Shown here: positions 29,321 to 48,243 of the stretch, piece by piece
Layout of the letters: every line of letters begins with the position of its first letter
How positions within the stretch are numbered: the stretch's first letter is position 1
Assembly: GCF_041228105.1 (NCBI RefSeq)
Contig: NZ_CP166097.1
Coordinates: forward strand, 1,922,001-1,986,000
DNA from: Pectobacterium aroidearum
GTDB taxonomy: Bacteria > Pseudomonadota > Gammaproteobacteria > Enterobacterales > Enterobacteriaceae
Direction of reading: 5' to 3'
Length of the DNA: 64,000 bases
Translations under genes and position numbers: made by a program
Notes under the pieces: generated by a model
What the model saw: only the letters and a program-made list of their open reading frames with translations
Told to the model about the DNA's origin: nothing
Database searches by the model: none

Positions 29321-29350
29321 AAAAAGCCGACGTCCTTGCGGGACGCCGGC
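29321..29350 (-). terminator. Rho-independent terminator of the helicase operon
   Basis: On the minus strand, GCCGGCGTCC-CGCA-AGGACGTCGGC forms a GC-rich stem-loop followed directly by TTTTT. It lies 11 bases beyond the helicase stop codon, so it ends transcription of the 29-42 kb block. Confidence 0.85.
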
Positions 29351-31641: not shown

Positions 31642-31659
31642 GGTGATGCTCCAAAAAAT

Positions 31660-31693
31660 GGGGCATGCACCGCCCAGGGGCGATGTATGCCCC
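31660..31693 (-). promoter_or_regulatory. Terminator-like leader hairpin before the helicase
   Basis: GGGGCAT (31660-31666) pairs with ATGCCCC (31687-31693), with a further inner stem. On the minus strand the hairpin is followed by six T and, at once, by GGAG and the helicase ATG. It looks like an intrinsic terminator or attenuator placed against a ribosome-binding site. Confidence 0.6.
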
Positions 31694-31776
31694 GATGGGT
31701 AAGAGAAATGAGCTGGTGTTGAACTCGGGTTCAGTGGCCAGCAGTGTGTAGGTGGTACTGCTTCCCCTTGCAGGGA

Positions 31777-32886
31777 TCAATGGATGGTGAGAATCCGTCC
31801 CAGCATGGCTGAGTTAGGAGACAGGTCCCATGCTCTGATGACGGGCACGAACTTATCGGTGAGAATGCGCGTTTCGGCGATTGAACCGTCATCGCGTTCG
31901 CAATACTCGGTGCTCGTTGCTTTCTGCTTGTAGGTGTCGCCCTTGACGGCAAGTGTGCGGCCGCTTTGGGACTGCACGACGCCGGAGATCGCACCCGCTG
32001 CCAGGGCCAATGCCAGGTGCCATTCAGATAAAGCACGAGCAGGCGCGCGCAGCGACTGCTGCGCGGCACCGAGGTGAGTCTCGAACGCTGGCCACAAACC
32101 TCGCAGACGCTGTACTTCTTCGGCGAACTGCATCGGCTCCATGCTGATGCGATAAAAATGCTCGGGTTCGGCCTGGGTGCCTGGCACGATATAGGGAAGC
32201 GACGTCCACTCGGGCGGCAATTCCTCTACGTCCTGTTCTCCCTGCCCGATTTGCAACAACCGGGCGCGGGTGGACTTCACGTCTTCACTCGCCAGATCGC
32301 GCTGGCGAGCACGACGACCAAATAGCACCACTTGTTTGAATTGTGTATCTACCGCACGGAAGATACGCAGATCGGCGAAGTGGCGCGTGAGCCAGCCCAC
32401 CATTTCCTGGTCGAGCACATAGAACGGAATGATGAAAATGAGAATGCCGTGGTACTGCAGCAAGGGCAGTGTCCGCTGGTAGAACAGCTTTTCCAGTCGG
32501 GGCCGGCCCTTACCGTCGTAGCCGATGTTGCCGTTGGCATCTCTGGATAAGTCGCCGTACGGTGGATTGAGCCAAAGCAAACCGAATGCCTGACGCGAGA
32601 TGAGAGTATCCATCAGGTCGGCATGGATGCAGTGATCGACCAACAACCGTGCATGGCTGGCGCGCTCCTGATCGTACTCGACAGCGTACGAACGGGTGTG
32701 ATCAAGCCCGAGGGCATGGGCGGCTTCGGCAATCGCAACGCCTTCGCCGGCACAAGGGTCAATAATGCACATGGGCTCATCGCTGGGAGCCAGTGCGGCG
32801 AGTGTCCGTTCGAGCGTGGACTCATCGGTAGGGTAATAGCCATTTTTGGCAAAATTTCTGGCGAGCCGGGGAAACATGAGTGCCAT
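31777..32886 (-). CDS. DUF6094-type adenine-specific DNA methyltransferase
   Basis: A 369-residue class I methyltransferase. The SAM-binding motif I is DPCAGEG (43-49) and the catalytic motif IV is NPPY (107-110), as in N6-adenine methyltransferases. It carries a long C-terminal extension. AGGAG six bases before 32886 fixes the start; a longer upstream frame is rejected. It has no cognate endonuclease and lies immediately upstream of the SNF2-type helicase, a pairing conserved in this ICE class. An anti-restriction or epigenetic role is inferred. Confidence 0.8.
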   Translation of the reverse strand: MALMFPRLARNFAKNGYYPTDESTLERTLAALAPSDEPMCIIDPCAGEGVAIAEAAHALGLDHTRSYAVEYDQERASHARLLVDHCIHADLMDTLISRQAFGLLWLNPPYGDLSRDANGNIGYDGKGRPRLEKLFYQRTLPLLQYHGILIFIIPFYVLDQEMVGWLTRHFADLRIFRAVDTQFKQVVLFGRRARQRDLASEDVKSTRARLLQIGQGEQDVEELPPEWTSLPYIVPGTQAEPEHFYRISMEPMQFAEEVQRLRGLWPAFETHLGAAQQSLRAPARALSEWHLALALAAGAISGVVQSQSGRTLAVKGDTYKQKATSTEYCERDDGSIAETRILTDKFVPVIRAWDLSPNSAMLGRILTIH

Positions 32887-32920
32887 AGGGATCTCCTGTC
32901 TGGCGATGATGAAAGAACGT

Positions 32921-32946
32921 GCAGGTGCCTGGTAAGGTGCGCCTGC
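32921..32946 (-). promoter_or_regulatory. Leader hairpin before the DUF6094 methyltransferase
   Basis: GCAGGTGC (32921-32928) pairs with GCGCCTGC (32939-32946) with one wobble. On the minus strand it is followed by a T-rich stretch (ACGTTCTTTC) and then AGGAG and the ATG. It belongs to the recurring hairpin series of this block. Confidence 0.5.
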
Positions 32947-32956
32947 CGTGAAATGA

Positions 32957-33604
32957 TCAGACCACCGCGTGCGGTGTCCAGATCTGTGACGGATAGGGAT
33001 AGGCCGTGAGAACGCCGTTACGAATAAGCTCGCCCAGCGCATCGGTGAGTGCTGGCACGTCCAGTCCAAGGCGAAAGCCCTGCAGCGGCCCGAGAGCGAC
33101 CGGTAGCTCATGGAGCATGTCGCGGCTGCTCAGTAACTCCAGCACGGGCGTTTGCCAGTGGTCGAGCAGTGGCAGCGGACATGTATCTTTGACGAGTTGC
33201 CACAAGCGAACGGTCGGTTCAGCAGCAGAGCGCGGCAGTAGCGCCAGTGCGCTGGCTGTGCTCTTGTCAGGGCAGATGCAACGCTGGTCGAACAGCCACA
33301 GATTGGTGAGCGATCCAAACAGCGTGCGGCGATAGTTGCGGGTCAGACGCTTTTCAAGGCGCTCGACCGAAGGGATGAACACAGGTACGGAGCCGCCGTG
33401 CTCTGTGATGAGGTGAAACTGGTTCAGTCCATCGTCATCGCGGCCCAGTGTGAGTCGGGCGATAAATTGCTGGATAGCAGTATCCCGCGCCCAGATTGAG
33501 ACAAAGACCAGATCGCCATTCTCGCGGCAGACGCAGGCATCGACCATCAGGTCAGTACATTCGTCGATGCGGAACAACGGTTGCTGTAATGAAGATTCGG
33601 GCAT
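32957..33604 (-). CDS. Conserved ICE hypothetical protein
   Basis: A 215-residue soluble protein with no recognised domain. It starts at 33604, with GAGGA seven bases upstream. Composition and codon use match neighbouring ICE genes. Cysteines at VDACVCREN and CICPDK are the only motif-like features. It lies between the methyltransferase and another small conserved protein. Function unknown. Confidence 0.7.
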   Translation of the reverse strand: MPESSLQQPLFRIDECTDLMVDACVCRENGDLVFVSIWARDTAIQQFIARLTLGRDDDGLNQFHLITEHGGSVPVFIPSVERLEKRLTRNYRRTLFGSLTNLWLFDQRCICPDKSTASALALLPRSAAEPTVRLWQLVKDTCPLPLLDHWQTPVLELLSSRDMLHELPVALGPLQGFRLGLDVPALTDALGELIRNGVLTAYPYPSQIWTPHAVV

Positions 33605-33629
33605 GGTGGTGTCCTCAATAAAAAATTGA

Positions 33630-33662
33630 GGGGCAACACCACCCTTGGGGCCGTGTTGCCCC
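33630..33662 (-). promoter_or_regulatory. Terminator-like leader hairpin with 10-bp perfect stem
   Basis: GGGGCAACAC (33630-33639) pairs perfectly with GTGTTGCCCC (33653-33662). On the minus strand it is followed within four bases by TTTTTT, then GAGGA and the ATG at 33604. It is the clearest example of the hairpin series. Confidence 0.7.
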
Positions 33663-33687
33663 AAGGGGATGAAAGCGCGTGAGCCGT

Positions 33688-34029
33688 TCAGCTTTCACGT
33701 TCGGCGAACGAACCGTCAGCCTGATGAATGACTACACGGTTGCCGACATTGTTTTCGGCATCACGCAGAACTTCGCTGAACATGCTCTCGGGCACGGTGA
33801 TCTGAAAATGCAGCAACACGGCACGGTAGTAATCCAGGCCATGGCCAAATGGATCACGCTCTTGCAGGTTGCTGTACAGATAGATGTCGTGTTCGTCACA
33901 CGTGTCTTCCTCGATCGGTTCTTCCGGTTTCTCAATGACGAGAAAGAAGTACTGCATCGGGCGATCCCAGCCGAGGTAGAGAGTGGTGGGAAAACCCAGG
34001 TGAGAGGTAGTGAAGTAGTGCCGACTCAT
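33688..34029 (-). CDS. Conserved ICE hypothetical protein
   Basis: A 113-residue acidic protein (MSRHYFTTSHLGFPTTL start) without a recognised domain. A GGAGCC ribosome-binding site lies upstream of the ATG at 34029. An acidic segment EEPIEEDTCDEHD spans about residues 35-47. The longer frame upstream covers a hairpin and a stop-flanking region and is rejected. Function unknown. Confidence 0.65.
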   Translation of the reverse strand: MSRHYFTTSHLGFPTTLYLGWDRPMQYFFLVIEKPEEPIEEDTCDEHDIYLYSNLQERDPFGHGLDYYRAVLLHFQITVPESMFSEVLRDAENNVGNRVVIHQADGSFAERES

Positions 34030-34053
34030 GGTGAGGCTCCTGAAATGAAAGGA

Positions 34054-34084
34054 CCGGGAACCTCCCTTGCGGGGAAGACCCCGG
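34054..34084 (-). promoter_or_regulatory. Leader hairpin before the 113-residue protein
   Basis: CCGGG (34054-34058) pairs with CCCGG (34080-34084), enclosing an inner CCC-TTGC-GGG stem. On the minus strand it is followed by TCCTTTCATTTC and then the ribosome-binding site. Part of the hairpin series; the U-tract is imperfect. Confidence 0.45.
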
Positions 34085-34132
34085 CGGGTGGATAAATACC
34101 GCATCAGCGGCGTGGAGATCGACGGTTGGCGT

Positions 34133-34477
34133 TCAATACTCGCTGCAACCAGCCGGACAGCAATTCGGATCAAGACCGTGTGTGCAATAGCCGTTTTCAG
34201 CATTCCAGTCCTGGGTCTCCTGCCTTTCAGCGGGCGTTGCATAATCCCATTCCCGTGCTATTGACAGCGCCTGTGCACGCAGGTGCTCGGGTAGTTGATC
34301 AACATGCTGGTCAATTGATGAGCTCAGGAGAACAATGTAATGGTCGTAAGCCAGCCCGCAGTACCTGCTAGCCTCTGTGGCTGCTGTTTTGCAGACAACC
34401 TGCCAGGCTTGTTCATCCAGTACGATGCGGGCATTTCCGTCAGCGTGCGAGAAAGAGGTTGTATCGTTTGTGAACAT
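34133..34477 (-). CDS. Conserved ICE hypothetical protein with cysteine-rich tail
   Basis: A 114-residue protein ending in a cysteine cluster (YCTHGLDPNCCPAGCSEY), possibly metal-binding. The start at 34477 has GGAG nine bases upstream. The N-terminal part is helical (EQAWQVVCKTAATEASRYCG). Function unknown. It lies between DUF3275 and the 113-residue protein in the same operon. Confidence 0.65.
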   Translation of the reverse strand: MFTNDTTSFSHADGNARIVLDEQAWQVVCKTAATEASRYCGLAYDHYIVLLSSSIDQHVDQLPEHLRAQALSIAREWDYATPAERQETQDWNAENGYCTHGLDPNCCPAGCSEY

Positions 34478-34500
34478 GATGGTGTGCTCCAGAAAGAAAT

Positions 34501-34531
34501 CGGAGTCCTCCCCCAGGGAGGCGGGGCTCCG
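34501..34531 (-). promoter_or_regulatory. Leader hairpin before the cysteine-tail protein
   Basis: CGGAG (34501-34505) pairs with CTCCG (34527-34531), with an inner CTCCC/GGGAG stem. On the minus strand it is followed by ATTTCTTTCT and then GGAG and the ATG at 34477. Confidence 0.55.
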
Positions 34532-34569
34532 GTGGGTGGGGAAAAATGCGGCAGCAGTGACAGGATGAA

Positions 34570-35244
34570 TCAGGTCGCCAGAGATTCTGGCTGGCGGTTC
34601 CACTGCTGGGCCGTGGCGTCGAACGCATAGCTCAACTGGCTCAACCGCGCGACTTGCAGGCGCAACGTGCGGCGGTCAATGGTTGCGTCCAGCTTCACCG
34701 ATTCACCCAGCGGCCAGAGGATGCCGAACAATGCAGCATCATCGCTATCGGGATTGTCCGAGGCCGCTACAGTCGCGGAGGGTGCATCGACGCTGAATGG
34801 CGTGGTGTCGACCAGTGGGTCCTGGGTGGCTTGTACAGGGGCAGGCCTGGCCTTGGATTTGGACGTTGCGGTTGGCGTGGGTACGGGTTGAGTACCCGAT
34901 TCCTCATCAAGCGGATCGACATCCTGCGTGGCGAAGGCGCGAGCCTCTGCTTTGCTGAGTTTGTCGATACCAGACAAGGTCATGCCATCCAGGTTGGCCC
35001 GGATCTCGAATCGCATGCCGTCGCCGACAGGATAGGCTTTCGGATAAATATATCGAATCGCAAATTCACCCTCATACTTTCCTTCGGGATACTGCTCCAG
35101 TTCGGGATCTTTGACATGGAACAGCCCAAGGTGAGTGGTGAGACGACCGACTGTGAACCGGCCGTTACGACCGGATATTGTGCGGATTGCGAGTTGGCCG
35201 CGAACGATAATGGGGGGAGTGGATTGAACGGCTGCTGTAGCCAT
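34570..35244 (-). CDS. DUF3275 family ICE protein
   Basis: A 224-residue protein. Residues 1-95 form the DUF3275 core (IIVRGQLAIRTISGRNGRFTVGRL start). A Pro/Ala/Thr/Ser-rich linker (about 110-160) leads to a conserved C-terminal segment (DDAALFGILWPLGESVKLDATI). DUF3275 proteins recur beside STY4534-type genes in this ICE class; their function is unknown, and the beta-rich N-terminal half could bind DNA. Confidence 0.82.
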   Translation of the reverse strand: MATAAVQSTPPIIVRGQLAIRTISGRNGRFTVGRLTTHLGLFHVKDPELEQYPEGKYEGEFAIRYIYPKAYPVGDGMRFEIRANLDGMTLSGIDKLSKAEARAFATQDVDPLDEESGTQPVPTPTATSKSKARPAPVQATQDPLVDTTPFSVDAPSATVAASDNPDSDDAALFGILWPLGESVKLDATIDRRTLRLQVARLSQLSYAFDATAQQWNRQPESLAT

Positions 35245-35294
35245 GGATAATCTCCTGGGATGCGTTGTACTACCGATAACCTTGGGAAAAGAGA

Positions 35295-35317
35295 CAAGAC
35301 CCCAATGTGAGGTCTTG
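35295..35317 (-). promoter_or_regulatory. Leader hairpin before DUF3275
   Basis: CAAGACC (35295-35301) pairs with GGTCTTG (35311-35317). On the minus strand it is followed by TCTCTTTTCCC. It sits 50 bases upstream of the DUF3275 ATG and just after the stop of the STY4534-like gene. Confidence 0.55.
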
Positions 35318-35326
35318 CCGATCGGC

Positions 35327-36247
35327 TTAGCGTGAAGTGACGAGAGCGGGCTCTTCTTCTACCGAGGATTGCGCTTCAGGTTCGGTTGTACCGGGCGTCG
35401 TAGGCGGCATATCCACGCTGTTATCAGACCTTTCTGACGCAGTGGATACCGCTGTAGCATGCTCGGAAGAGGGAGCCTGGTTGGCAGTGGGATAGACCAA
35501 TTGGCCATCGATCTTGATCAGGCCAATATGGATCAGTTTGGACTCCAGACTCGCAGCCGGCTCGCCGGCATGCTCGCCCTTCGTGCGAAGGTACGGATCA
35601 GCTTTCATGTCGTTGAGACGAAAGGCCACCAGTACCTTGCGCTCAGCCTCGACGGCCTGCACGCAACGGCGCACCAGATGTTGAGCCTCCGGTGTGGTCA
35701 CGATGGTGTTGATGTACCGGTATTCCGGTTCTTCGACAGGCCCGGCCAGCGCACCGATGGTGCATGCGAGGAACGGGTCACCCTTCTTCGGTGTGACGTC
35801 TTTGGGCCGATTGAGGTAGCCAATGCCCCGAGTGACCAACTCGTACTGTTCGATTATTTGCAGTGCGGCAGGGGCGATCAGTTCAGCTTTCAGGAGCCGT
35901 CCCTTGAGACTGGCTGCCGGTTCACCCTTGCGCTCACCGCTGGGGCGAATGAATGCATCACTCCACAGATCCCCCAGCCGGAACTTGATCATCGGACGCT
36001 GCTTTGGATCATCAATGCCGACATAGTGTTCGACCAGTTTTTTAGCCTCGGCACCTGTGACTTTGACATCAAAATAGCGGGTGGTCGGTTCTTGGGACGA
36101 GCCGACCAGCGCTGCGATGGTGCAGGCCAGGAAGGGTTGAGCACGTCGGCCACCCCGCACGGGAACTTCCCGTACGCGTTGCAGACGACCGTAACCTTCG
36201 GTGTGCAGATCGAAATAGGCCTTTTCGCCTGAAGTAGAATGAGTCAT
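35327..36247 (-). CDS. STY4534 family ICE replication-associated protein, duplicated domain
   Basis: A 306-residue protein of the DUF3577/STY4534 type. The domain occurs twice: the signature PFLACTI-ALxG followed by a YxD/N-V strand appears at about residues 37-70 and again at about 158-190, and the tail signature GEPAASLxxxL also occurs twice. The C-terminal 60 residues are Ser/Thr/Pro/Glu-rich and disordered. GGAGAT seven bases upstream fixes the start at 36247. These proteins are linked to replication of SPI-7-like elements by family name; the biochemical role is unknown. Confidence 0.8.
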   Translation of the reverse strand: MTHSTSGEKAYFDLHTEGYGRLQRVREVPVRGGRRAQPFLACTIAALVGSSQEPTTRYFDVKVTGAEAKKLVEHYVGIDDPKQRPMIKFRLGDLWSDAFIRPSGERKGEPAASLKGRLLKAELIAPAALQIIEQYELVTRGIGYLNRPKDVTPKKGDPFLACTIGALAGPVEEPEYRYINTIVTTPEAQHLVRRCVQAVEAERKVLVAFRLNDMKADPYLRTKGEHAGEPAASLESKLIHIGLIKIDGQLVYPTANQAPSSEHATAVSTASERSDNSVDMPPTTPGTTEPEAQSSVEEEPALVTSR

Positions 36248-36276
36248 GGTGAAATCTCCATTGAAAATGAAGCGGA

Positions 36277-36307
36277 GACACACCAGGCCCGATGGCGGGG
36301 GTGTGTC
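36277..36307 (-). promoter_or_regulatory. Leader hairpin before STY4534-like gene
   Basis: GACACACC (36277-36284) pairs perfectly with GGTGTGTC (36300-36307). On the minus strand it is followed by TCCGCTTCATTTTC and then GGAG and the ATG. The remaining bases up to the divergent hns-like gene (36308-36624) hold no further gene. Confidence 0.6.
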
Positions 36308-36624
36308 ACCCCGCGATGGGTTGATAAGGCGAATGCATCCACTACCGGTAGAAGCCGGTGGTCGTCCGCGCGAGGATGCTGTGCGAACTGGCTTGGTCAT
36401 GCGGTTTTTGCCGCACCGCAACCTTGGAGACCGTGGTTGCGTGGCATGTCGCTGACAACGTCAGCAAAACATGCAGACAGAATGCCCGTGCCTCAATGCC
36501 GGCGCGACGAGAAATATGAACTGGAGTCGTTCCCTATTTTCGAGATGCCATTCCTCTGGAAATGGCTGTCGTGGTACAAACGCGTACTTAACGACTTTCT
36601 GCATCACCCATGGAGGGAGAAATA

Positions 36625-36948
36625 ATGTCGATTGATTTGCAGGCGCTGTCCGCAGCCGAATTGAAGAACCTGATCGCATCCGCACAGGATCAACTGGTCA
36701 AGGGAGAACGTGAACGCATCAAGGCTGTTCGCGAGAAAATTCTGCAGTTGCTGGAAGGTGAAAATCTGGAGCTGGAGCAGGTCTTCCCGAACTCGAAGCC
36801 GAGTCCTCGGGTAAAAAATCCTGTGGCTCCCAAATATGCACATCCCGACAACCCAGGCCTGACCTGGAGTGGTCGAGGTAAGCAGCCGAACTGGTTCAAA
36901 GAGGCGCTCGCGGCAGGCAAAACGCAGGCGCAGTTATTGCTGCCCTAG
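36625..36948 (+). CDS. H-NS family nucleoid-associated protein
   Basis: A 107-residue protein with the H-NS plan: an N-terminal coiled-coil oligomerisation region (about 5-55), a linker, and a C-terminal DNA-binding domain with TWSGRGKQPNWFKEALAAGK, the AT-hook-like pattern of the Bv3F/H-NS type. AGGGAG six bases before the ATG at 36625 is preferred over an ATG at 36610. It is a lone plus-strand gene divergent from the STY4534-like gene. An element-encoded silencer that lowers the fitness cost of carriage is a known role for such proteins. Confidence 0.88.
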   Translation: MSIDLQALSAAELKNLIASAQDQLVKGERERIKAVREKILQLLEGENLELEQVFPNSKPSPRVKNPVAPKYAHPDNPGLTWSGRGKQPNWFKEALAAGKTQAQLLLP

Positions 36949-37013
36949 TCGTTATCCAAAGTGGCACCTGATCAGCACAGACCCAAGACAATCAGGTTTC
37001 CCTGCGGCGCGAT

Positions 37014-37856
37014 TTAATCACCGCAAAAACAGGCCACCGCATCTTCGGTTGAATCGAACAGATCACCCTGATTTGCGGCGAAGCGCGCCAGATCGGCATA
37101 GCTGGGACCGTCAATACGAAACCGTGTGCCACTGGCTTTGCTGGCCAGATTCAGTGATTCCATGCGTATCCACCATATGGCAGCTTCCGGTCTGGCCTTG
37201 ATGAGGGCCAGTCGCTGTCCCTGTGGCTTGAGGAAGCACAAATCACAGTTGCCTTCGAGTGTGCGGCCTTTCACGGTCAAGAGTTCCAGATCGAAAGGTT
37301 GCGCCTGCCAGAACGCACTGACCTCGTATACGCTGATGTTTGCATCGGCCAATGGCATGCACATCATTTCATGGCTTGATTCCGTGGAGTGACCGCGTGC
37401 CCGAATTTTGGCGACACGCCGTTGCTCGTCGGCGCGGATGCCAATGAATTGATCCCATTCCGCCCAACCAAGACTGCGCAGGTATTTATGCATCGGCCGA
37501 ATTTTCAGGCTGGTGGTGCAGCCGCGAGCAACGGGATTGGGCAGGTATTGGCGTTTACGGATCAACGCCTCGAAAGGCTCACCCTGACGGCTGGCCGTCG
37601 TGAAATCGACCCGTGTGAACCCTGGTGCAGCGTCCTGATATTCGAGCCAGTGGATGGAGGTTTTCCAATGTGTGGCGCAGTCACGCACGAAGCGCAGGGT
37701 AGCCTCTACTTCTTTGCCCGTGTTGGCGAAGCAGACTATGGTATCGGCAGGCAGGCCGCAGTTGGCCTGTAAAACGCGCCACAGCATATAGGCACTGGTG
37801 CGGCCACCGGAAAAACTGATGCAGGTCGGGGAGTCAATCTTGAACGGGTCGCGCAT
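37014..37856 (-). CDS. PAPS reductase-like (PP-loop) protein
   Basis: A 280-residue protein of the phosphoadenosine phosphosulfate reductase / DndC-like PP-loop superfamily. The nucleotide-binding motif is SFSGGRTSAYML (15-26). Cysteines near the C-terminus (NCDLCFLKP and ACFCGD) could bind a metal cluster. The original leader has been split by the IS element inserted 107 bases upstream of the start. In ICEs such proteins may take part in DNA modification; sulfate assimilation is unlikely in this context. Confidence 0.75.
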   Translation of the reverse strand: MRDPFKIDSPTCISFSGGRTSAYMLWRVLQANCGLPADTIVCFANTGKEVEATLRFVRDCATHWKTSIHWLEYQDAAPGFTRVDFTTASRQGEPFEALIRKRQYLPNPVARGCTTSLKIRPMHKYLRSLGWAEWDQFIGIRADEQRRVAKIRARGHSTESSHEMMCMPLADANISVYEVSAFWQAQPFDLELLTVKGRTLEGNCDLCFLKPQGQRLALIKARPEAAIWWIRMESLNLASKASGTRFRIDGPSYADLARFAANQGDLFDSTEDAVACFCGD

Positions 37857-37953
37857 GGGGGTGTCTCCAGGGGATCGCTGGCGGAATGGCCCGTCGTGGG
37901 CTGAGACGCATGCGTGTCAGCGGTGGAGGTGCTGGCGCGATAGGAAAGAAGCC

Positions 37954-37963
37954 CCCATGAGGG
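37954..37963 (+). repeat. Target-site duplication, left copy
   Basis: CCCATGAGGG at 37954-37963 is repeated exactly at 39244-39253, immediately outside the two ends of the insertion sequence. A 10-bp duplication fits the IS4 family and shows that the insertion is recent. Confidence 0.9.
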
Positions 37964-39243
37964 CTGACGGTTCCCCATAAATAAAGACAGGCATAGAAGG
38001 TTGTGATCTACTTAGTGTTCCACCAAAAAGTAAGGTCACGCCTCTATGCCTGCTTCACAAGTTTGCCATAAATTTTTTAGCCAGTCCCTGAACTCACTCC
38101 ATCAGTACCGTAAAATGCTCTGCTCGATATGACCGTTGCACTGACGCGTGGCGCATCGCTCTCTCTGACCAGCATCGGCAGGTATCTGCCAGGACCGGCA
38201 CGGGTTAAGCACAAGATTAAGCGTGTTGACCGCCATCTCAACAGTGACCTGATGTTTAGCGATGTCCCCGCTGTTTATCAGAAGCTTGTATCCCGCCTCA
38301 CCTGCAGCCTTTCATTATGCGTTATTGCCGTGGACTGGAGCGGCTATCCGTCATCGGAGCTCAGCGTTTTGCGGGCGAGTCTACTGTGCGATGGAAGAGC
38401 TATCCCGCTGATGAGTAAAGTCATTTCCTCTCAATACCAGAACAACGCTACCGTTCAGAACGATTTTCTCGATCAGATGGCTGCCGCCATCGGCAAAGAT
38501 AAGCAGGTCATTGTTGTGACTGATGCAGGCTTTCGCAGCAGTTGGTTTCACCACATTCGCTCTCTGGGCTGGCATTTTGTCGGACGTATCAGAGGTCGCC
38601 TTTATTTTCAGATAATCGGGGATGAGGAATGGAAAATGGCGCGGGATATTACGTCAAGAGCGAAGTCATGCTATCTGGGATTTGGGCGACTGGCACGCAA
38701 CGCCAGCCGTGACTGCCTCGGGCATTTCTATACCGTGCATAAGCGGGCAACGGGCAGGAAAGGTAACCAGTGCTTCCCTAAAACGGACAAGATGTATCGT
38801 AAAAGCGCGCGTGAACCGTGGCTGCTTTTTACCAGCCTGATGGGATATAAACCACGTGAGATAGTTAAAATTTACAGTCGCCGTATGCAGATAGAGCAGA
38901 ATTTTAGAGATGAGAAAAGTGAGCGCTATGGACTGGGGCTTAGGGCAAGTAAAAGTCGGGGCGAAAAGCGAATATCAGTGCTCTGCCTGATAGCGACACT
39001 CTACAGCATCATCATGTGGCTAACGGGTTATTATCTTGAAAGCAAAGGAATAAATAGATGGTTTCAGGCGAACAGTGAGAAATCTCGGAGGGTGTTGTCG
39101 TATCTGACATTGAGTGAAAATGTCATCCGTCAATCACCGAGGATCCTGTCGAGGATGAACCCCGACAGGGTATACGACGATATGGCGAGAGCCTATCGAA
39201 ACATCATCATGGTGTATTGATGATGTTTCTGGGGATCTCTCAG
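37964..39243 (+). mobile_element. IS10-like insertion sequence (IS4 family), 1,280 bp
   Basis: The left end CTGACGGTTCCCCATAA and the inverted right end CTGAGAGATCCCCAGAA match at 13 of 17 positions; the right end equals the IS10 terminus over its first 13 bases. Ten-base direct repeats flank both ends. One transposase gene fills the element. The insertion split a stem-loop, AGCCCCC-ATGA-GGGGGCT, that formed part of the leader of the PAPS-reductase-like gene. Confidence 0.92.
38129..39220 (+). CDS. IS10-type DDE transposase, N-terminus in another frame
   Basis: A 363-residue transposase similar to IS10 transposase along its length. The IS4-family Y2R3E6K box reads YSRRMQIEQNFRDEK, and the first two catalytic aspartates lie in VIAVDWSG and VVTDAGF. 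The expected first 27 residues are encoded at 38046-38129 in another frame (from MPASQV), which ends in TGA overlapping the ATG at 38129. One added A in the AAAA run at 38112-38115 would fuse them. The transposase is therefore shortened, or made by frameshifting or re-initiation. Confidence 0.85.
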   Translation: MTVALTRGASLSLTSIGRYLPGPARVKHKIKRVDRHLNSDLMFSDVPAVYQKLVSRLTCSLSLCVIAVDWSGYPSSELSVLRASLLCDGRAIPLMSKVISSQYQNNATVQNDFLDQMAAAIGKDKQVIVVTDAGFRSSWFHHIRSLGWHFVGRIRGRLYFQIIGDEEWKMARDITSRAKSCYLGFGRLARNASRDCLGHFYTVHKRATGRKGNQCFPKTDKMYRKSAREPWLLFTSLMGYKPREIVKIYSRRMQIEQNFRDEKSERYGLGLRASKSRGEKRISVLCLIATLYSIIMWLTGYYLESKGINRWFQANSEKSRRVLSYLTLSENVIRQSPRILSRMNPDRVYDDMARAYRNIIMVY

Positions 39244-39253
39244 CCCATGAGGG
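39244..39253 (+). repeat. Target-site duplication, right copy
   Basis: CCCATGAGGG, identical to 37954-37963. Removing the IS and one copy restores the perfect hairpin AGCCCCC-ATGA-GGGGGCT. Confidence 0.9.
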
Positions 39254-39271
39254 GGCTATGGAGGACGAGGC

Positions 39272-39637
39272 TCAGTTGCTATCGGGGCTTGTCGCGACAA
39301 CTTGCAGGAAAATCTGTGTTGCGGTAGCGGACACTTCGAGATCACCAGCACCATCCAGGATGCCGGTAAACACCCTGTCGCCAGGTTCGAAAAACTCACC
39401 AAAATCATCGCCACCGAACTCAGCGCGTGAACGCTCCCACCAGTCGTCGAAGGGCGCAACGTCAGGGTTGCAGCCAATTGCGTAGGCGATCAGCTTTTGA
39501 CGCCCATCGGGATGGCGTTCACCATGCTCGGCGAGCCAGTAAACACCCTGATCCTTGACCAGGATGATGCGGCACTGATTGGCAACAGCCTCGGCGATGA
39601 CGGGCCGCAATTCGGCTCCTTTGAAGCGTAAAGTCAT
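39272..39637 (-). CDS. DUF3085 family ICE protein
   Basis: A 121-residue protein starting MTLRFKGAELRPVIAEA, which matches DUF3085. It is compact, acidic (FGGDDFGEFFEPGDRVF) and without recognised catalytic residues. It is conserved in the same block as DUF3275 and STY4534-like genes. Its stop lies 29 bases from the right end of the IS. Function unknown. Confidence 0.78.
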   Translation of the reverse strand: MTLRFKGAELRPVIAEAVANQCRIILVKDQGVYWLAEHGERHPDGRQKLIAYAIGCNPDVAPFDDWWERSRAEFGGDDFGEFFEPGDRVFTGILDGAGDLEVSATATQIFLQVVATSPDSN

Positions 39638-39664
39638 ACAAGTTACTCCTGAGAGGATGGTATG

Positions 39665-39695
39665 CCGGGCAACACAGTGAAGAAGTGTTGTCCGG
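39665..39695 (-). promoter_or_regulatory. Leader hairpin before DUF3085
   Basis: CCGGGCAACAC (39665-39675) pairs with GTGTTGTCCGG (39685-39695) over 11 bp with one wobble. No clear T-run follows on the minus strand. Downstream come AGGAG and the DUF3085 ATG. Confidence 0.6.
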
Positions 39696-39784
39696 GGCGG
39701 GGGATTGGTGCGTATCCCAGTCGAGGTGCGATAAGTAAACGATGCTGGTCAGATAACCACCGTATAGACGGGTTGTCTGTCGCG

Positions 39785-40582
39785 TCATGACTTGCGTCGC
39801 AGCGGCTTTTGAATGGTGCGCACACGTATGCGACGCCAACTGCCATCGTCGATCAGCCTGAACAGTACGTCTCCGAGGGTATCGAAGAACACACCGTCAA
39901 CCCGTTCAACCAACTCTCCATCGTGGCTCAGCACTACGGCATAGAGGTCGTCGGCGCGTTCGTATTGCACAGTGACGCGGCCATTGAATTTCGCCGTGCT
40001 TGTGTTGAAGCTGATAGCCGGTGGTGTAGCGATGATGTCCTTGGGCAGTGGATCAACCCAGGTGAAATCCCGCGCACCCGCATCAACCAGCAGGTGCGTA
40101 ATCCGACGAAAACCATCCGGTGCCGGCAGCTCCTCCAGTTGCCTGATCAGTTCCTGTAACTCCGGGCAGCGGGGTTGCGGGATCGGAAGCTTGGCGGGGG
40201 CGGAGCCGAGGACATACGTCTGGAGCTTGTAGGGCTTGCCATCAGCGGTGTATTTGGTGCGCTCTTCGGGGGTGTCTGCGCGAAGACCGTCGAAGCGATG
40301 CCGTGCGTAGGGTTCGACCTGCACCCTGGCTCCTTCGTCTGGATCTTCGGTCACGAGCGTCCGGTCAAGCACGGCGAACTCGATTCGGCCCGTCTTGACG
40401 ACAATGGCATCCTCCGTCCTGGCGATGATCTTTCCTTCAAAAGGCTTGGGATCAATGTGAAAGCCCAGTGTCGACACCTTGGGCTGGCCGTCAAAAATTT
40501 TGAACCTGAAACTGCGGGCATTGGAAGGAACGTGGTCACGCACCAATGACTGCATCTGATTGCGAATGGTTTGATGATCCAT
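39785..40582 (-). CDS. Conserved ICE hypothetical protein
   Basis: A 265-residue soluble protein without a recognised domain. It is beta-rich in its first half (KIFDGQPKVSTLGFHIDPKPF, IIARTEDAIVVKTGRIEFAVLD) and in its C-terminal third (GRVTVQYERADDLYAVVLSHDGELVERVDGV). Codon use matches the block. It lies between the cytosine methyltransferase and DUF3085, with its own hairpin leader. Function unknown. Confidence 0.68.
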   Translation of the reverse strand: MDHQTIRNQMQSLVRDHVPSNARSFRFKIFDGQPKVSTLGFHIDPKPFEGKIIARTEDAIVVKTGRIEFAVLDRTLVTEDPDEGARVQVEPYARHRFDGLRADTPEERTKYTADGKPYKLQTYVLGSAPAKLPIPQPRCPELQELIRQLEELPAPDGFRRITHLLVDAGARDFTWVDPLPKDIIATPPAISFNTSTAKFNGRVTVQYERADDLYAVVLSHDGELVERVDGVFFDTLGDVLFRLIDDGSWRRIRVRTIQKPLRRKS

Positions 40583-40594
40583 GGGAAAGTCTCC

Positions 40595-40633
40595 AAAAAA
40601 AGGAGCTCCCCAGCCACAAGGGAGGAGAGCCCC
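40595..40633 (-). promoter_or_regulatory. Terminator-like leader before the 265-residue protein
   Basis: A GC-rich inverted region (CTCCC at 40606-40610 with GGGAG at 40620-40624, and weaker outer pairing) is followed on the minus strand by seven T and then directly by GGAG and the ATG at 40582. It has the same arrangement as the hairpins at 31660 and 33630, though with a weaker stem. Confidence 0.45.
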
Positions 40634-40815
40634 TATGGGTGGAATGAGAAAATAGCGAAAGCCAACACACCGTCGGCGTGTCGCAGTCTTGATGGCCTTG
40701 ACTGCCTGGGATGTTGCCAGCTACGCCGGCGAACATGTATTCAGCATGACGTGGCAACGGTGCGTGTGTGTGGAACAACACGCATCAGGACGTGCCCGTA
40801 TTGGTTAGCGCGATG

Positions 40816-44952: not shown

Positions 44953-47900
44953 TTGAATAATTTAGTGGTTATCCCTCCTGATAATTATCGGGAGTTTCGA
45001 AGTCGAATTCTATCTAGAATTGCGGCAGAAGAAAAACGACAGGTTGATATAAATCAGCCAATGCATCCTCTTCGGGAGTTAAGGCAGGCAATCGCTGCTT
45101 ACCAGCAACATTTGGCCTTCTATGGCGAGTCGATGTTGGCAGAGGACGTGGCTGTTGAATCCCATCTGCGCAGAGCATTACGTATCCCAAACCACGTATC
45201 CTTGCGGCCTTCAAAAATTGAAATCATCAGGCAGTATCTGATGTGCTTTCTGCCGTTGTCGATGGTGCTGCATCGGGCCAGAAAGTTTCTTCATTATGCG
45301 GGTTCGTTCTGCGGAAGAAGTCTGGTCTATTCGGTACATGTGAAGCGGACACTCACAGATAGCCATTACTACAGCCGATCGTTTGATTTCGTCATGCGCA
45401 AACTGGAACTGCCCAATACATTCGAGGCGTTCCGAGGCATGCGAGAGCTGGATATAGACTGGATGCAGTCATATTGCTGTTTGGGCGTTCAGCAAAAATT
45501 GCAGATGGATAAATCCCATGCAGTATTGCCCGGGCGGCAGGTTAATGGCGCACGAGTTCTGACGTTGGTGCGACAAGGGATCGTCCAGCGAGTGGAGGAT
45601 CTCTCCTGGCTTCCTGAGCGTCCAAGTTGGTTGAGTCGTTACGAGCAACCGTCATTGGAAGAACAGCTACGCTTCAAGGAATTGGTAGTGCTGTTGCGCA
45701 AAGCGGGTGTCCCAGCCGAGAAAATTGCCCGTCAGGTGGATGTCGACCTATCGCATCGAAATGTTGAGTGGCTGACTGAGAATCTCGAACAACTGGACTG
45801 TGATAGCGAGGGGCTCGGGGTGCTTTTTGAGCACATGGCACGGCATGTGTTGTTTACTCAACCGCAGCGTTGGCGCTTTCTGCTGCAGGTACTCAAGATC
45901 CGCCGTGCTGTCGATCTGGTGCGCTTTGATCGTTTACTGGGGGGCCATCAGACTTGCAGTGCTGAGTTCGCCCTGGCATTGCTGACGGCCGGAGCTGATA
46001 TTGATGGGTTGGTTGCTTGCCAAAAATTGATACTGGAAACGGGTGAGATGGATGATCTCACTCCGGTCACTGCCAGACTCAATGTGTTGCTGTCGGCACC
46101 TTGGCTTTTTACCTTCGAGCAATTGGCTAGCGCCGAGGATTACCTGCTGCTGGAGCTGGATTTGTCAGCTTACTTGCAGGTGCTGCAGGAATATGGATTT
46201 TCAACTGCCGCTGCCGTACTGGCCTTTCAGGGCAGTTATCGGCAGCTTAGAGCAGAATCGCTGTCGCGTTGGCTGGCTATTGCGGCCTTGCCGGGCGTAG
46301 GACAGACGCCGTCAACCGTGGCCAAATGGCTGCAAAGAGCAGCCTCTGGCGGGTATGCGGACGCCTTTGAATACATGCAGCAGTCAGGGGAATTGCAGAC
46401 GTTTGCGCACTTGCGCCAGGTGACCAAGGTGGCCTCCCTCGGCACTACGCTGCTGTCCTATCTACGTGAAGATCGCGGACTTGTCGGGCTACCTGTCCTA
46501 CTGAAGTGGTTTTACAACTATGCACCTGGTATCAAGGATGTACACCTTGGGGTAGGGATCGACGCCATCAAGCGTGTGCTGTTGGATGATGCCTTTACCC
46601 GTTGTGACTTCACGCTGATGGCAGGCAATCGCACTTGTGTAGAATCGTTGCTAAGCCATTATGTGGAGCAGAAGATAGGCCGCTATCCCTATCAGGCCGA
46701 GGATGAGCAGAAGACGAGTTACCTGCAATGCAGCAGTGACCTTCGCCATGAGCTGGTAGAGCGTTTTGCTCCTTGTATAAAGCGCATGCTGGGGCTGACC
46801 GATGGTGTGCTTCTGGATAGCCTGATGCCATACCTTGAAGCACCACTTGTTCAGCTTGAGGGAGAGGTTGATAGCTTGCGGTTACTGCTGAATGATCTGC
46901 TTGCTGGCCGTGGGCCTTCAACAGTGACATTAAGCCAACAGCAAGCCGAGCTTGTTGCCCTGGTGTATCGCACCAGTGCTTCTACCATTCGCCAGCTTTG
47001 GCCATGTCTGCAGTCGCGGGAGACGGATGTACCTTCTAGCTTGCTGGAAGCAAGCTATCCAATGACGTGGATGCGCACTGAGTTACAGGTAGAAGGTGAT
47101 GTCGATTCGCGAGGGCTTGATGCACTTGCTAGAGCATTGGTATTTGCTGCTCGCTTCTCGTCTTGCATTGCACAAGATGAGCATGAGGCTTGCCGGCATT
47201 TGAGTCCAAAGCGTTTGGGAGATAGTGCTGCCGATGTTTGGTCGTTGGCACCACATCTTGGCGTGTTGCTAGCTATCTGTCATGCCGATGAAAATGTTGC
47301 TGTGTGGCTTAAAGAAGGAGAGGAAAGGCTAAGGACAATGGCACAGGCGGGCTCGGAGATCGTTCTGCTATTGGATTCACTGCGTGCGTTGTTTGATGTG
47401 GATATCGGCGATGCTCTGGATGTCCACATTGCGCCCTTCGTTGCTGGATTGAGCAGTAGCGCTGTGGCGGTGCTGGGCTCGCGTCTTGATGCTCGCTGGC
47501 AGATAGACGAAGGTGCTCCTGATCAACGACTGTCAGAGGCGATAGCTCGAACTAGGGTATTGGTTTTAAAAAAATTTGGACGCTGGAGTGAGTTACAGCG
47601 CAGGCGCGTGGTTCATGAGGGGGAGAGTCAGACGGGTAGCCAGATGGTTGCCTGCGTTTCTAAATCACCCGCGGCGTTCTTTGCCAAGATGTCAGCTGGT
47701 ATTTGTACCGGGAACAATACGCGGATGTGGGAGGAGTCCCGACATGTACACATGCTTGTGTTTGCACCAGGCGATAAGCGCATTGCCGGAATGGCATTGT
47801 TGTATTTCGAGCGGATAGGGAGCTTTGATAAAGCGGGATTTACATTGGTGATCCGTGCCATTAATCCGATCGGGGATGTGTTTGCTGCCCACAGTGTGTC

Positions 47901-48243
47901 ATCGATTGTGGATGGCTACTTTGATGCAGCCATACGCATCGCTCAGGATGCTGGATGTGTCATGGTCGCGTTTCCGTCTCCGACCGGCATGCACCTGATG
48001 TCAAATCGCAAGGATATCGAGGATGACATCAAGACGCGCTATATCGGCCGTTCTCGTAGGATGTATCGCTATGACACTGAGGATGCTGGAGAGGATTGGC
48101 GAACTGAGCCGCGTCAGATAACCACGAATTTCTACGCCTACGAAGAGGGGGTGAACCTAGTCAACGAACTGTATGTGATCTGGCGGGCACAGGAGCCCGC
48201 ACAAGAGGTGGATGATGTGCGGGTAGTTGCAACGCAGAGCTAG
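44953..48243 (+). CDS. Large (1,096 residue) cargo protein of unknown function
   Basis: A 1,096-residue protein without transmembrane segments and with no recognised enzymatic motif in its first 880 residues, which are predicted largely helical and leucine-rich, suggesting a repeat-like scaffold. The C-terminal 200 residues differ: they contain AAFFAKMSAGICTGNNTRMW, MLVFAPGDKRIAGMALLYFE and a YEEG end, a mixed alpha/beta pattern loosely like an acyltransferase (GNAT) or a cysteine/histidine catalytic domain. It starts at TTG 44953 after a GGGGAAGG site; the start is uncertain. Its TAG stop shares CTAG with the stop of the convergent neighbour. Probable defence or interaction cargo, by context. 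Confidence 0.6.
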   Translation: MNNLVVIPPDNYREFRSRILSRIAAEEKRQVDINQPMHPLRELRQAIAAYQQHLAFYGESMLAEDVAVESHLRRALRIPNHVSLRPSKIEIIRQYLMCFLPLSMVLHRARKFLHYAGSFCGRSLVYSVHVKRTLTDSHYYSRSFDFVMRKLELPNTFEAFRGMRELDIDWMQSYCCLGVQQKLQMDKSHAVLPGRQVNGARVLTLVRQGIVQRVEDLSWLPERPSWLSRYEQPSLEEQLRFKELVVLLRKAGVPAEKIARQVDVDLSHRNVEWLTENLEQLDCDSEGLGVLFEHMARHVLFTQPQRWRFLLQVLKIRRAVDLVRFDRLLGGHQTCSAEFALALLTAGADIDGLVACQKLILETGEMDDLTPVTARLNVLLSAPWLFTFEQLASAEDYLLLELDLSAYLQVLQEYGFSTAAAVLAFQGSYRQLRAESLSRWLAIAALPGVGQTPSTVAKWLQRAASGGYADAFEYMQQSGELQTFAHLRQVTKVASLGTTLLSYLREDRGLVGLPVLLKWFYNYAPGIKDVHLGVGIDAIKRVLLDDAFTRCDFTLMAGNRTCVESLLSHYVEQKIGRYPYQAEDEQKTSYLQCSSDLRHELVERFAPCIKRMLGLTDGVLLDSLMPYLEAPLVQLEGEVDSLRLLLNDLLAGRGPSTVTLSQQQAELVALVYRTSASTIRQLWPCLQSRETDVPSSLLEASYPMTWMRTELQVEGDVDSRGLDALARALVFAARFSSCIAQDEHEACRHLSPKRLGDSAADVWSLAPHLGVLLAICHADENVAVWLKEGEERLRTMAQAGSEIVLLLDSLRALFDVDIGDALDVHIAPFVAGLSSSAVAVLGSRLDARWQIDEGAPDQRLSEAIARTRVLVLKKFGRWSELQRRRVVHEGESQTGSQMVACVSKSPAAFFAKMSAGICTGNNTRMWEESRHVHMLVFAPGDKRIAGMALLYFERIGSFDKAGFTLVIRAINPIGDVFAAHSVSSIVDGYFDAAIRIAQDAGCVMVAFPSPTGMHLMSNRKDIEDDIKTRYIGRSRRMYRYDTEDAGEDWRTEPRQITTNFYAYEEGVNLVNELYVIWRAQEPAQEVDDVRVVATQS

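Follow-up and report, generated by a model that had tools for sequence, protein, structure and literature searches.

Serial stem-loops complementary to their own ribosome-binding sites in an ICEclc-family element of Pectobacterium aroidearum: candidate translational control elements

The gene block and its stem-loops

The stretch analysed here (the window) covers 64,000 nucleotides of the Pectobacterium aroidearum genome (contig NZ_CP166097.1, positions 1,922,001 to 1,986,000; host genome 5.28 Mb, one contig) and contains a block of minus-strand genes of an integrative and conjugative element (ICE), which is a member of the ICEclc family. The block codes for a helicase, for proteins of 215, 113, 114 and 265 amino acids (aa), and for proteins with the Pfam domains DUF6094, DUF3275, DUF3577, DUF3085 and PAPS-reductase-like, and a 306-aa protein belonged to the STY4534 family of ICE replication proteins (NCBIfam). 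The block proteins were 99-100% identical to their counterparts in Pectobacterium zantedeschiae (locus L021). Relatives of the helicase were present in 383 public-genome stretches; the best 80 of the 383 (81-100% identity) were retained, and nearly all of these came from Beta- and Gammaproteobacteria.

GC-rich stems (hairpin P1) preceded nine minus-strand genes of the block. Six of them (helicase, 215-aa, 113-aa, 114-aa, DUF3577, and 265-aa) are referred to as core genes and three (DUF6094, DUF3275, and DUF3085) as control block genes. The fold energy of the approximately 60-65 nt preceding the Shine-Dalgarno (SD) sequence was compared with that of 300 dinucleotide shuffles, and p<0.02 was obtained in 7 of the 9 gaps (helicase, 215-aa, and DUF3577 <0.004 each, DUF3085 0.003, 265-aa 0.007, DUF3275 0.013, and DUF6094 0.017), while the 113-aa and 114-aa genes gave 0.053 and 0.11, respectively. 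The PAPS-reductase-like gene gave p=0.073 in the same test. Sixteen 20-kb stretches of the same genome supplied 93 host genes for comparison. Of these, 1.1% had z-scores as extreme as the helicase, 215-aa, DUF3577, and DUF3085 stems, and 13% and 27% equalled the 113-aa and 114-aa stems, respectively. An earlier note on this DNA, made from the letters alone (the sequence-only reading), had described stem-loops before serial minus-strand genes as a regular design ahead of ribosome-binding sites (RBSs) that the encoded proteins do not explain, and both points were borne out. Its ranking of the 265-aa hairpin as a weaker case was mistaken: the stem at 40606 belongs to that gene and is strong.

The stems recurred across ICEclc-family loci. 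For the orthologue sets, tblastn rows were excluded if they lay on the minus strand of the locus, started past residue 30 or fell <200 nt from an end of the locus (rows retained: DUF3577 58/75, DUF3085 40/52, 265-aa 48/49, and PAPS 10/11); identical rows were merged and similar ones clustered before testing. The strand co-evolution sets were further reduced by rows in which no SD or hairpin could be called (113-aa 1/18, 114-aa 2/27, and DUF3275 1/44). Exchange of strands between orthologues showed that the P1 arms co-evolve in 8 of the 9 genes, with p<2e-4 for 215-aa, 265-aa, DUF6094, DUF3275, and DUF3085, 0.0008 for 113-aa, 0.012 for 114-aa, and 0.033 for DUF3577; the helicase gave p=0.64, and its arms hardly vary. 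The stem base lay at a median of 20-22 nt from the ATG in all six core genes and at 25-30 nt in the control genes.

Pairing of the stems with their own ribosome-binding sites

In the six core genes, the 3' strand of the stem was also complementary to that gene's own SD and spacer. At the helicase, the 3' strand GGTGCATGCCCCA pairs with the RBS TGGAGCATCACC, and at the 215-aa gene GGTGGTGTTGCCCCTCA pairs with TGAGGACACCACC. The letters differ from gene to gene, so that exchanging RBSs between genes serves as a test. Among near ICE lineages with at least 4 core genes, pairing with the own RBS was stronger in 15 of 15 (mean -4.0 kcal/mol), with p<0.05 in 10 lineages and p from 0.08 to 0.21 in the remaining five, and the window alone gave -15.0 for own against -11.7 for other RBSs (p=0.021). 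The three control block genes showed a mean difference of -0.07 over 8 lineages (6 slightly negative, p 0.17-1.0). When the 3' strand was ranked against the 93 host RBSs, the own RBS was in the best 5% in 36 of 78 core clusters and in 0 of 57 control clusters; by gene, these were helicase 11/14, 114-aa 8/13, DUF3577 5/8, 265-aa 6/13, 113-aa 4/9, and 215-aa 2/21. An RBS-complementary strand with a second partner, as a translational switch calls for, was thus found, and found against controls.

The design extended to distant relatives. Helicase orthologues of about 52-68% identity kept the plan with other letters. The deep helicase set consisted of 21 of 42 loci picked by hand, the window and 10 loci from the near set; it omits four loci at which no start could be called, two at which the start was misplaced, L092 (partial gene), L133 (a near-copy of L130), and 13 near-type loci (L083 and L111-L122). 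Own pairing in this set of deep orthologues and near types was -12.3 against -9.5 on exchange (14 clusters, p=1e-4), and the distant orthologues alone (11 clusters) gave p=0.001. A further 15 distant ICE loci (L141-L155), in which genes were picked solely by a stem before the SD, showed stronger own pairing in 15 of 15 (mean -2.6 kcal/mol, p<=0.05 in 9), and the pooled elements (n=104) gave -12.9 for own and -10.2 kcal/mol for exchanged pairing (p<2e-4); in these loci the helicase start is misplaced in L143, the helicase is unselected in L142 and L145-L147, and some of the selected ORFs (open reading frames) are probably not genes. The controls gave p=0.87 for 57 host genes with similar stems (own -6.9 vs -7.2) and p=0.16 for 31 opposite-strand ORFs of the distant loci. 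The plan also precedes genes that are absent from the window (for example, L009 at 6309 and 9575, L035 at 6516, L026 at 1723, and L004 at 884). A scan for the whole design returned 9 matches among 99 starts in the window, of which 5 are block genes and the other 4 seem to be chance matches, and missed the 114-aa gene; with 4 matches among 281 host starts, the scan gives false positives. The serial, gene-specific complementarity to the RBS is real; it is conserved even in distant ICEs, and its specificity holds against all three kinds of control. The positions of all features are shown in Table 1.

Table 1 Hairpins, ribosome-binding sites and other features of the block, in window coordinates
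Feature	Position	Strand	Remarks
Helicase hairpin P1	31660..31693	-	3' strand 31659-31671, can pair with RBS
Helicase RBS (SD + spacer)	31642..31653	-	alternative partner of the 3' strand
215-aa hairpin P1	33630..33662	-	3' strand 33627-33643; RBS-complementary in the window, weak in most relatives
215-aa RBS	33605..33617	-	
113-aa hairpin P1	34054..34084	-	3' strand 34054-34066, RBS-complementary
113-aa RBS	34030..34041	-	
114-aa hairpin P1	34501..34531	-	3' strand 34499-34508; rank in the window only 0.118, strong in relatives (8/13 clusters)
114-aa RBS	34481..34492	-	
DUF3577 / STY4534-family hairpin P1	36272..36314	-	3' strand 36274-36286, RBS-complementary; directly downstream of radC RNA
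DUF3577 RBS	36248..36260	-	
265-aa hairpin P1	40602..40633	-	overlaps the poorly matched 3' end of the radC RNA match
265-aa RBS	40583..40595	-	
radC RNA (RF01754)	36335..36483	-	107.8 bits, DUF3577 gap
radC RNA (RF01754)	40605..40747	-	65.2 bits, 265-aa gap
DUF6094 plain hairpin	32921..32947	-	3' strand not RBS-complementary
DUF3275 hairpin	35293..35319	-	terminator-like in the window and some relatives; no special RBS pairing
DUF3085 hairpin	39665..39695	-	U-run after the stem in most relatives; no special RBS pairing
Insertion sequence	37964..39243	+	transposase ORF 38129-39220

Some further observations concern the same leaders. Among the 104 distant elements, 10 had the motif TCA[AT]CC no more than 25 nt from the stem on its 5' side and 12 had it in the gap between stem and SD (host 0/57); it may mark an unstructured standby region for the ribosome. 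Eight loci of different host genera (L035 and seven others) had the same 91-nt helicase leader without a single difference, which suggests recent spread of one ICE. Upstream of the PAPS-reductase-like gene (37014-37900, minus strand), TCGTCTCCG was complementary by eye to the own RBS in L009 and L014.

Translational control, processing or termination

We think it rather probable that, in at least six block genes, translation is controlled by a cis-acting element of the gene's own that has two states. In state A, P1 would be formed and the RBS free. The base of P1 lies about 20-22 nt before the start codon, roughly where the 30S footprint should end, so that the 30S subunit should just fit on a free RBS. 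In state B, pairing of the P1 3' strand with the SD and spacer of its own gene would close the RBS, and the 5' half could refold as a shorter hairpin. The predicted RBS-closed fold disrupts P1, making the two mutually exclusive, in 38-57% of the core clusters and in 0-15% of the control clusters, and we infer that both states would form in cells and govern translation. The choice between the states may be made by co-transcriptional folding, ribosome capture or a shared factor, which is more speculative; since transcription finishes P1 before it reaches the RBS, co-transcriptional folding could favour opening. The suggestion of the sequence-only reading that each gene may have its own control is upheld as a possibility; the complementarity of the 3' strand to the own RBS is a feature that this reading missed. 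A wider proposal is that ICEclc-family and distant ICEs run a translational regulon, in which many genes of the DNA-processing block would have RNA switches of a common design with gene-specific letters, and one signal (candidates are ribosome supply, folding time or an RNA-binding factor) would open their RBSs jointly, providing a checkpoint one level below the bistable decision on transcription; this is tentative, and we hold it to be more doubtful than likely.

Several results weigh against a two-state switch. Co-evolution of the RBS pairing within genes was significant in only 2 of 6 (265-aa p=0.0012 and 113-aa p=0.0066; helicase 0.15, 114-aa 0.23, 215-aa 0.51, and DUF3577 0.93). The 215-aa gene was weak in the ranking against host RBSs, and 4 of the 14 deep helicase clusters paired with their own RBS no better than average. 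A home-made tree-based covariation test gave no helix pair; the one pair that it returned was non-canonical and 3 nt apart, and the test is taken as underpowered. Of the 6 core genes of the window, 3 reached significance in a three-strand score computed on single sequences (100 shuffles; 0/100 for 215-aa, 113-aa, and DUF3577, 0.21 for helicase and for 114-aa, and 0.57 for 265-aa), and the likeness in sequence between the 5' arm and the RBS was weak (11/15, median p 0.21). At the 265-aa gene of the window, the best RBS-closed fold retains P1. High predicted stability of both folds does not separate core from control orthologues, being seen in 94-100% of the former, 77-92% of the latter, and 6% of host genes, and the predicted preference for the closed fold was about equal in host genes. 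The p-values are also optimistic because ICE lineages are related.

The evidence on termination came from U-runs and from the transcript of ICEclc. The runs of T6, T6, and T7 noted earlier near 31660, 33630, and 40606 are all present in the sequence. A run of at least 4 U after the stem was counted by cluster, the counts being back-calculated from cluster fractions; such runs were commoner at DUF3085 (10/15), helicase (9/14), 265-aa (5/13), and DUF3577 (3/8), and rarer at DUF3275 (5/20), 114-aa (3/13), 113-aa (1/9), 215-aa (1/21), and DUF6094 (1/22). The conserved U-tract of an intrinsic terminator was absent at the 215-aa, DUF6094, 113-aa, and 114-aa genes and partly present at helicase and DUF3085. 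In homologous ICEs the stems of the reported design are conserved and its U-tracts mostly are not, and most of the stems are not conserved terminators.

In ICEclc (PMC2892462), Northern blot, reverse transcription PCR (RT-PCR), and tiling array assigned ORFs 68241-81655 to a single mRNA of 14.5 kb; an 8.5 kb Northern band spans ORF81655 to ORF74436, and RT-PCR links the genes throughout except 73676-74436. The correspondence with the block rests on the coordinates of locus L035 as a stand-in for the ICEclc sequence. This locus was taken as the match on two grounds: two of its genes end at 68239 and 68985, no more than 2 nt from ORFs 68241 and 68987, and its helicase, which ends at 74425 (ORF74436), shares an 11-nt shift with the next gene, which starts 138 nt on in L035 and after a reported gap of 139 bp in ICEclc (PMC2892462). 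Mapping of the ICEclc ORFs by offset alone was rejected as not unique, four loci being tied at 5/17. On the L035 coordinates, an 8.5 kb mRNA that ends at the helicase would span the DUF3275, 114-aa, 135-aa, 215-aa, DUF6094, and helicase genes. A strong terminator-like hairpin (29326-29350, minus strand; 10 pairs, T5) lies directly downstream of the helicase stop, a place that coincides with the RT-PCR break in ICEclc if ORF74436 is the helicase (PMC2892462).

A series of intrinsic terminators, combined with antitermination or with partial readthrough to give graded operon expression, could account for the U-runs in some copies (helicase and DUF3085), for the 24 terminator-like sites in 18 kb of the window against 15.6 in shuffles, and for the drop of the ICEclc array signal from 5' to 3' along the transcript (PMC2892462). 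However, most relatives have no U-run at 215-aa, 113-aa, 114-aa, and DUF6094, the 8.5 kb band and RT-PCR links of ICEclc cross the block (PMC2892462), no element-encoded NusG-domain protein was found in the window (both NusG-domain matches of the genome lie outside it), and the RBS pairing would be left unexplained. We regard such terminators as very unlikely, and the earlier proposal that each gene would need antitermination is not supported, given the poorly conserved U-runs, the polycistronic ICEclc block and the outlying NusG matches. A reading in which P1 alone matters, by insulating the RBS, shielding a processed 5' end or offering a nuclease site that splits the polycistronic mRNA, is unlikely but has more to recommend it: P1 is the best conserved feature and its base lies at a constant distance from the ATG, and the authors of the ICEclc studies suspect that the long transcript is cleaved and processed (PMC2892462), with processing at three of the gaps (PMC9286271). 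P1 alone does not predict, though, that the 3' strands match the RBSs of their own genes, and the other block and host hairpins have no such match.

The slightest chance is given to the stems being bound by an RNA-binding protein of the CsrA or ProQ type. Plasmids, phages, and Legionella ICEs are known to carry genes of the CsrA family (PMC7366521), and the host genome has one CsrA and one ProQ, of which the host CsrA could serve; but no CsrA or ProQ gene lies in the window (the genome matches are outside it), no common loop motif was noticed (TCA[AT]CC in 10 of 104 distant elements only), and such binding would not require gene-specific letters. A Pfam search of 30 window proteins, many of them without any match, found no RNA-binding regulator.

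Termination is likely at one hairpin outside the series and possible at the DUF3275 and DUF3085 stems. The insertion sequence is flanked by a 10-bp target duplication (37954-37963 and 39244-39253) and splits a hairpin that sits after the DUF3085 stop. In the intact relative L002 this hairpin and the following start are about 93 nt apart, and in all 5 further relatives shown a run of at least 4 T comes after it. This hairpin looks like a 3' terminator and not an RBS hairpin, so that the claim of another such hairpin broken at 37964 was right on the split and apparently wrong on the type. The end of the insertion sequence (37964-38062) resembled unannotated stretches of 93-99 nt in 18 of 5426 E. 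coli genomes (approximately 87-89% identity).

Other structures and comparison with known systems

The Rfam gathering score was reached in the window by two radC RNA matches only, and the remaining gaps were unmatched. Three more sub-threshold matches (E<=10), including Mu-gpT-DE in the DUF6094 gap (17.9 bits against a cut-off of 49), were taken as chance. Neither the window nor any of 6 related loci contained an Rfam riboswitch, and radC alone reached the gathering score in those loci too. The radC RNA was present in 2-17 copies in each of 20 ICE-bearing genomes searched and in 0 of 14 control genomes. Two genes of the opposite strand were also observed: an H-NS-like gene (PF00816; 36610-36948) lies between the PAPS-reductase-like gene and the DUF3577 radC RNA, and a 1096-aa ORF (44953-48243), perhaps cargo, lies within the element.

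In this ICE family, read coverage and reporter output disagreed, and the authors suggested post-transcriptional regulation (PMC9286271). Among the top matches listed in a literature search, judged by title and abstract opening, no description of such serial RBS elements was found. If correct, the two-state reading would add a conserved layer of post-transcriptional control to a very common ICE family and would provide natural sets of RBS switches with one plan and differing letters.

The elements are best read as an RBS-switch design without an Rfam entry. Translational riboswitches and attenuators, with their anti-SD and anti-anti-SD strands, likewise have mutually exclusive hairpins of which one hides the SD; in contrast, no aptamer or leader peptide was recognised in the ICE elements, which occur as many gene-specific copies per operon. 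Type I toxin mRNAs such as aapA3 likewise have short, metastable hairpins that can sequester the SD, and a role has been proposed there for co-transcriptional folding (PMC6733600). That system is a single mRNA with an antisense RNA, while the ICE elements precede several internal cistrons for which no antisense RNA is known. The radC RNA (RF01754; Weinberg et al. 2010, PMC2864571) also precedes two genes of the set, DUF3577 and 265-aa, but is a separate and longer structure that does not match the other ICE elements. Intrinsic terminators share the GC-rich stem and, in some copies, the U-run, whereas here the U-run is unconserved at most genes and the ICEclc block is read through (PMC2892462).

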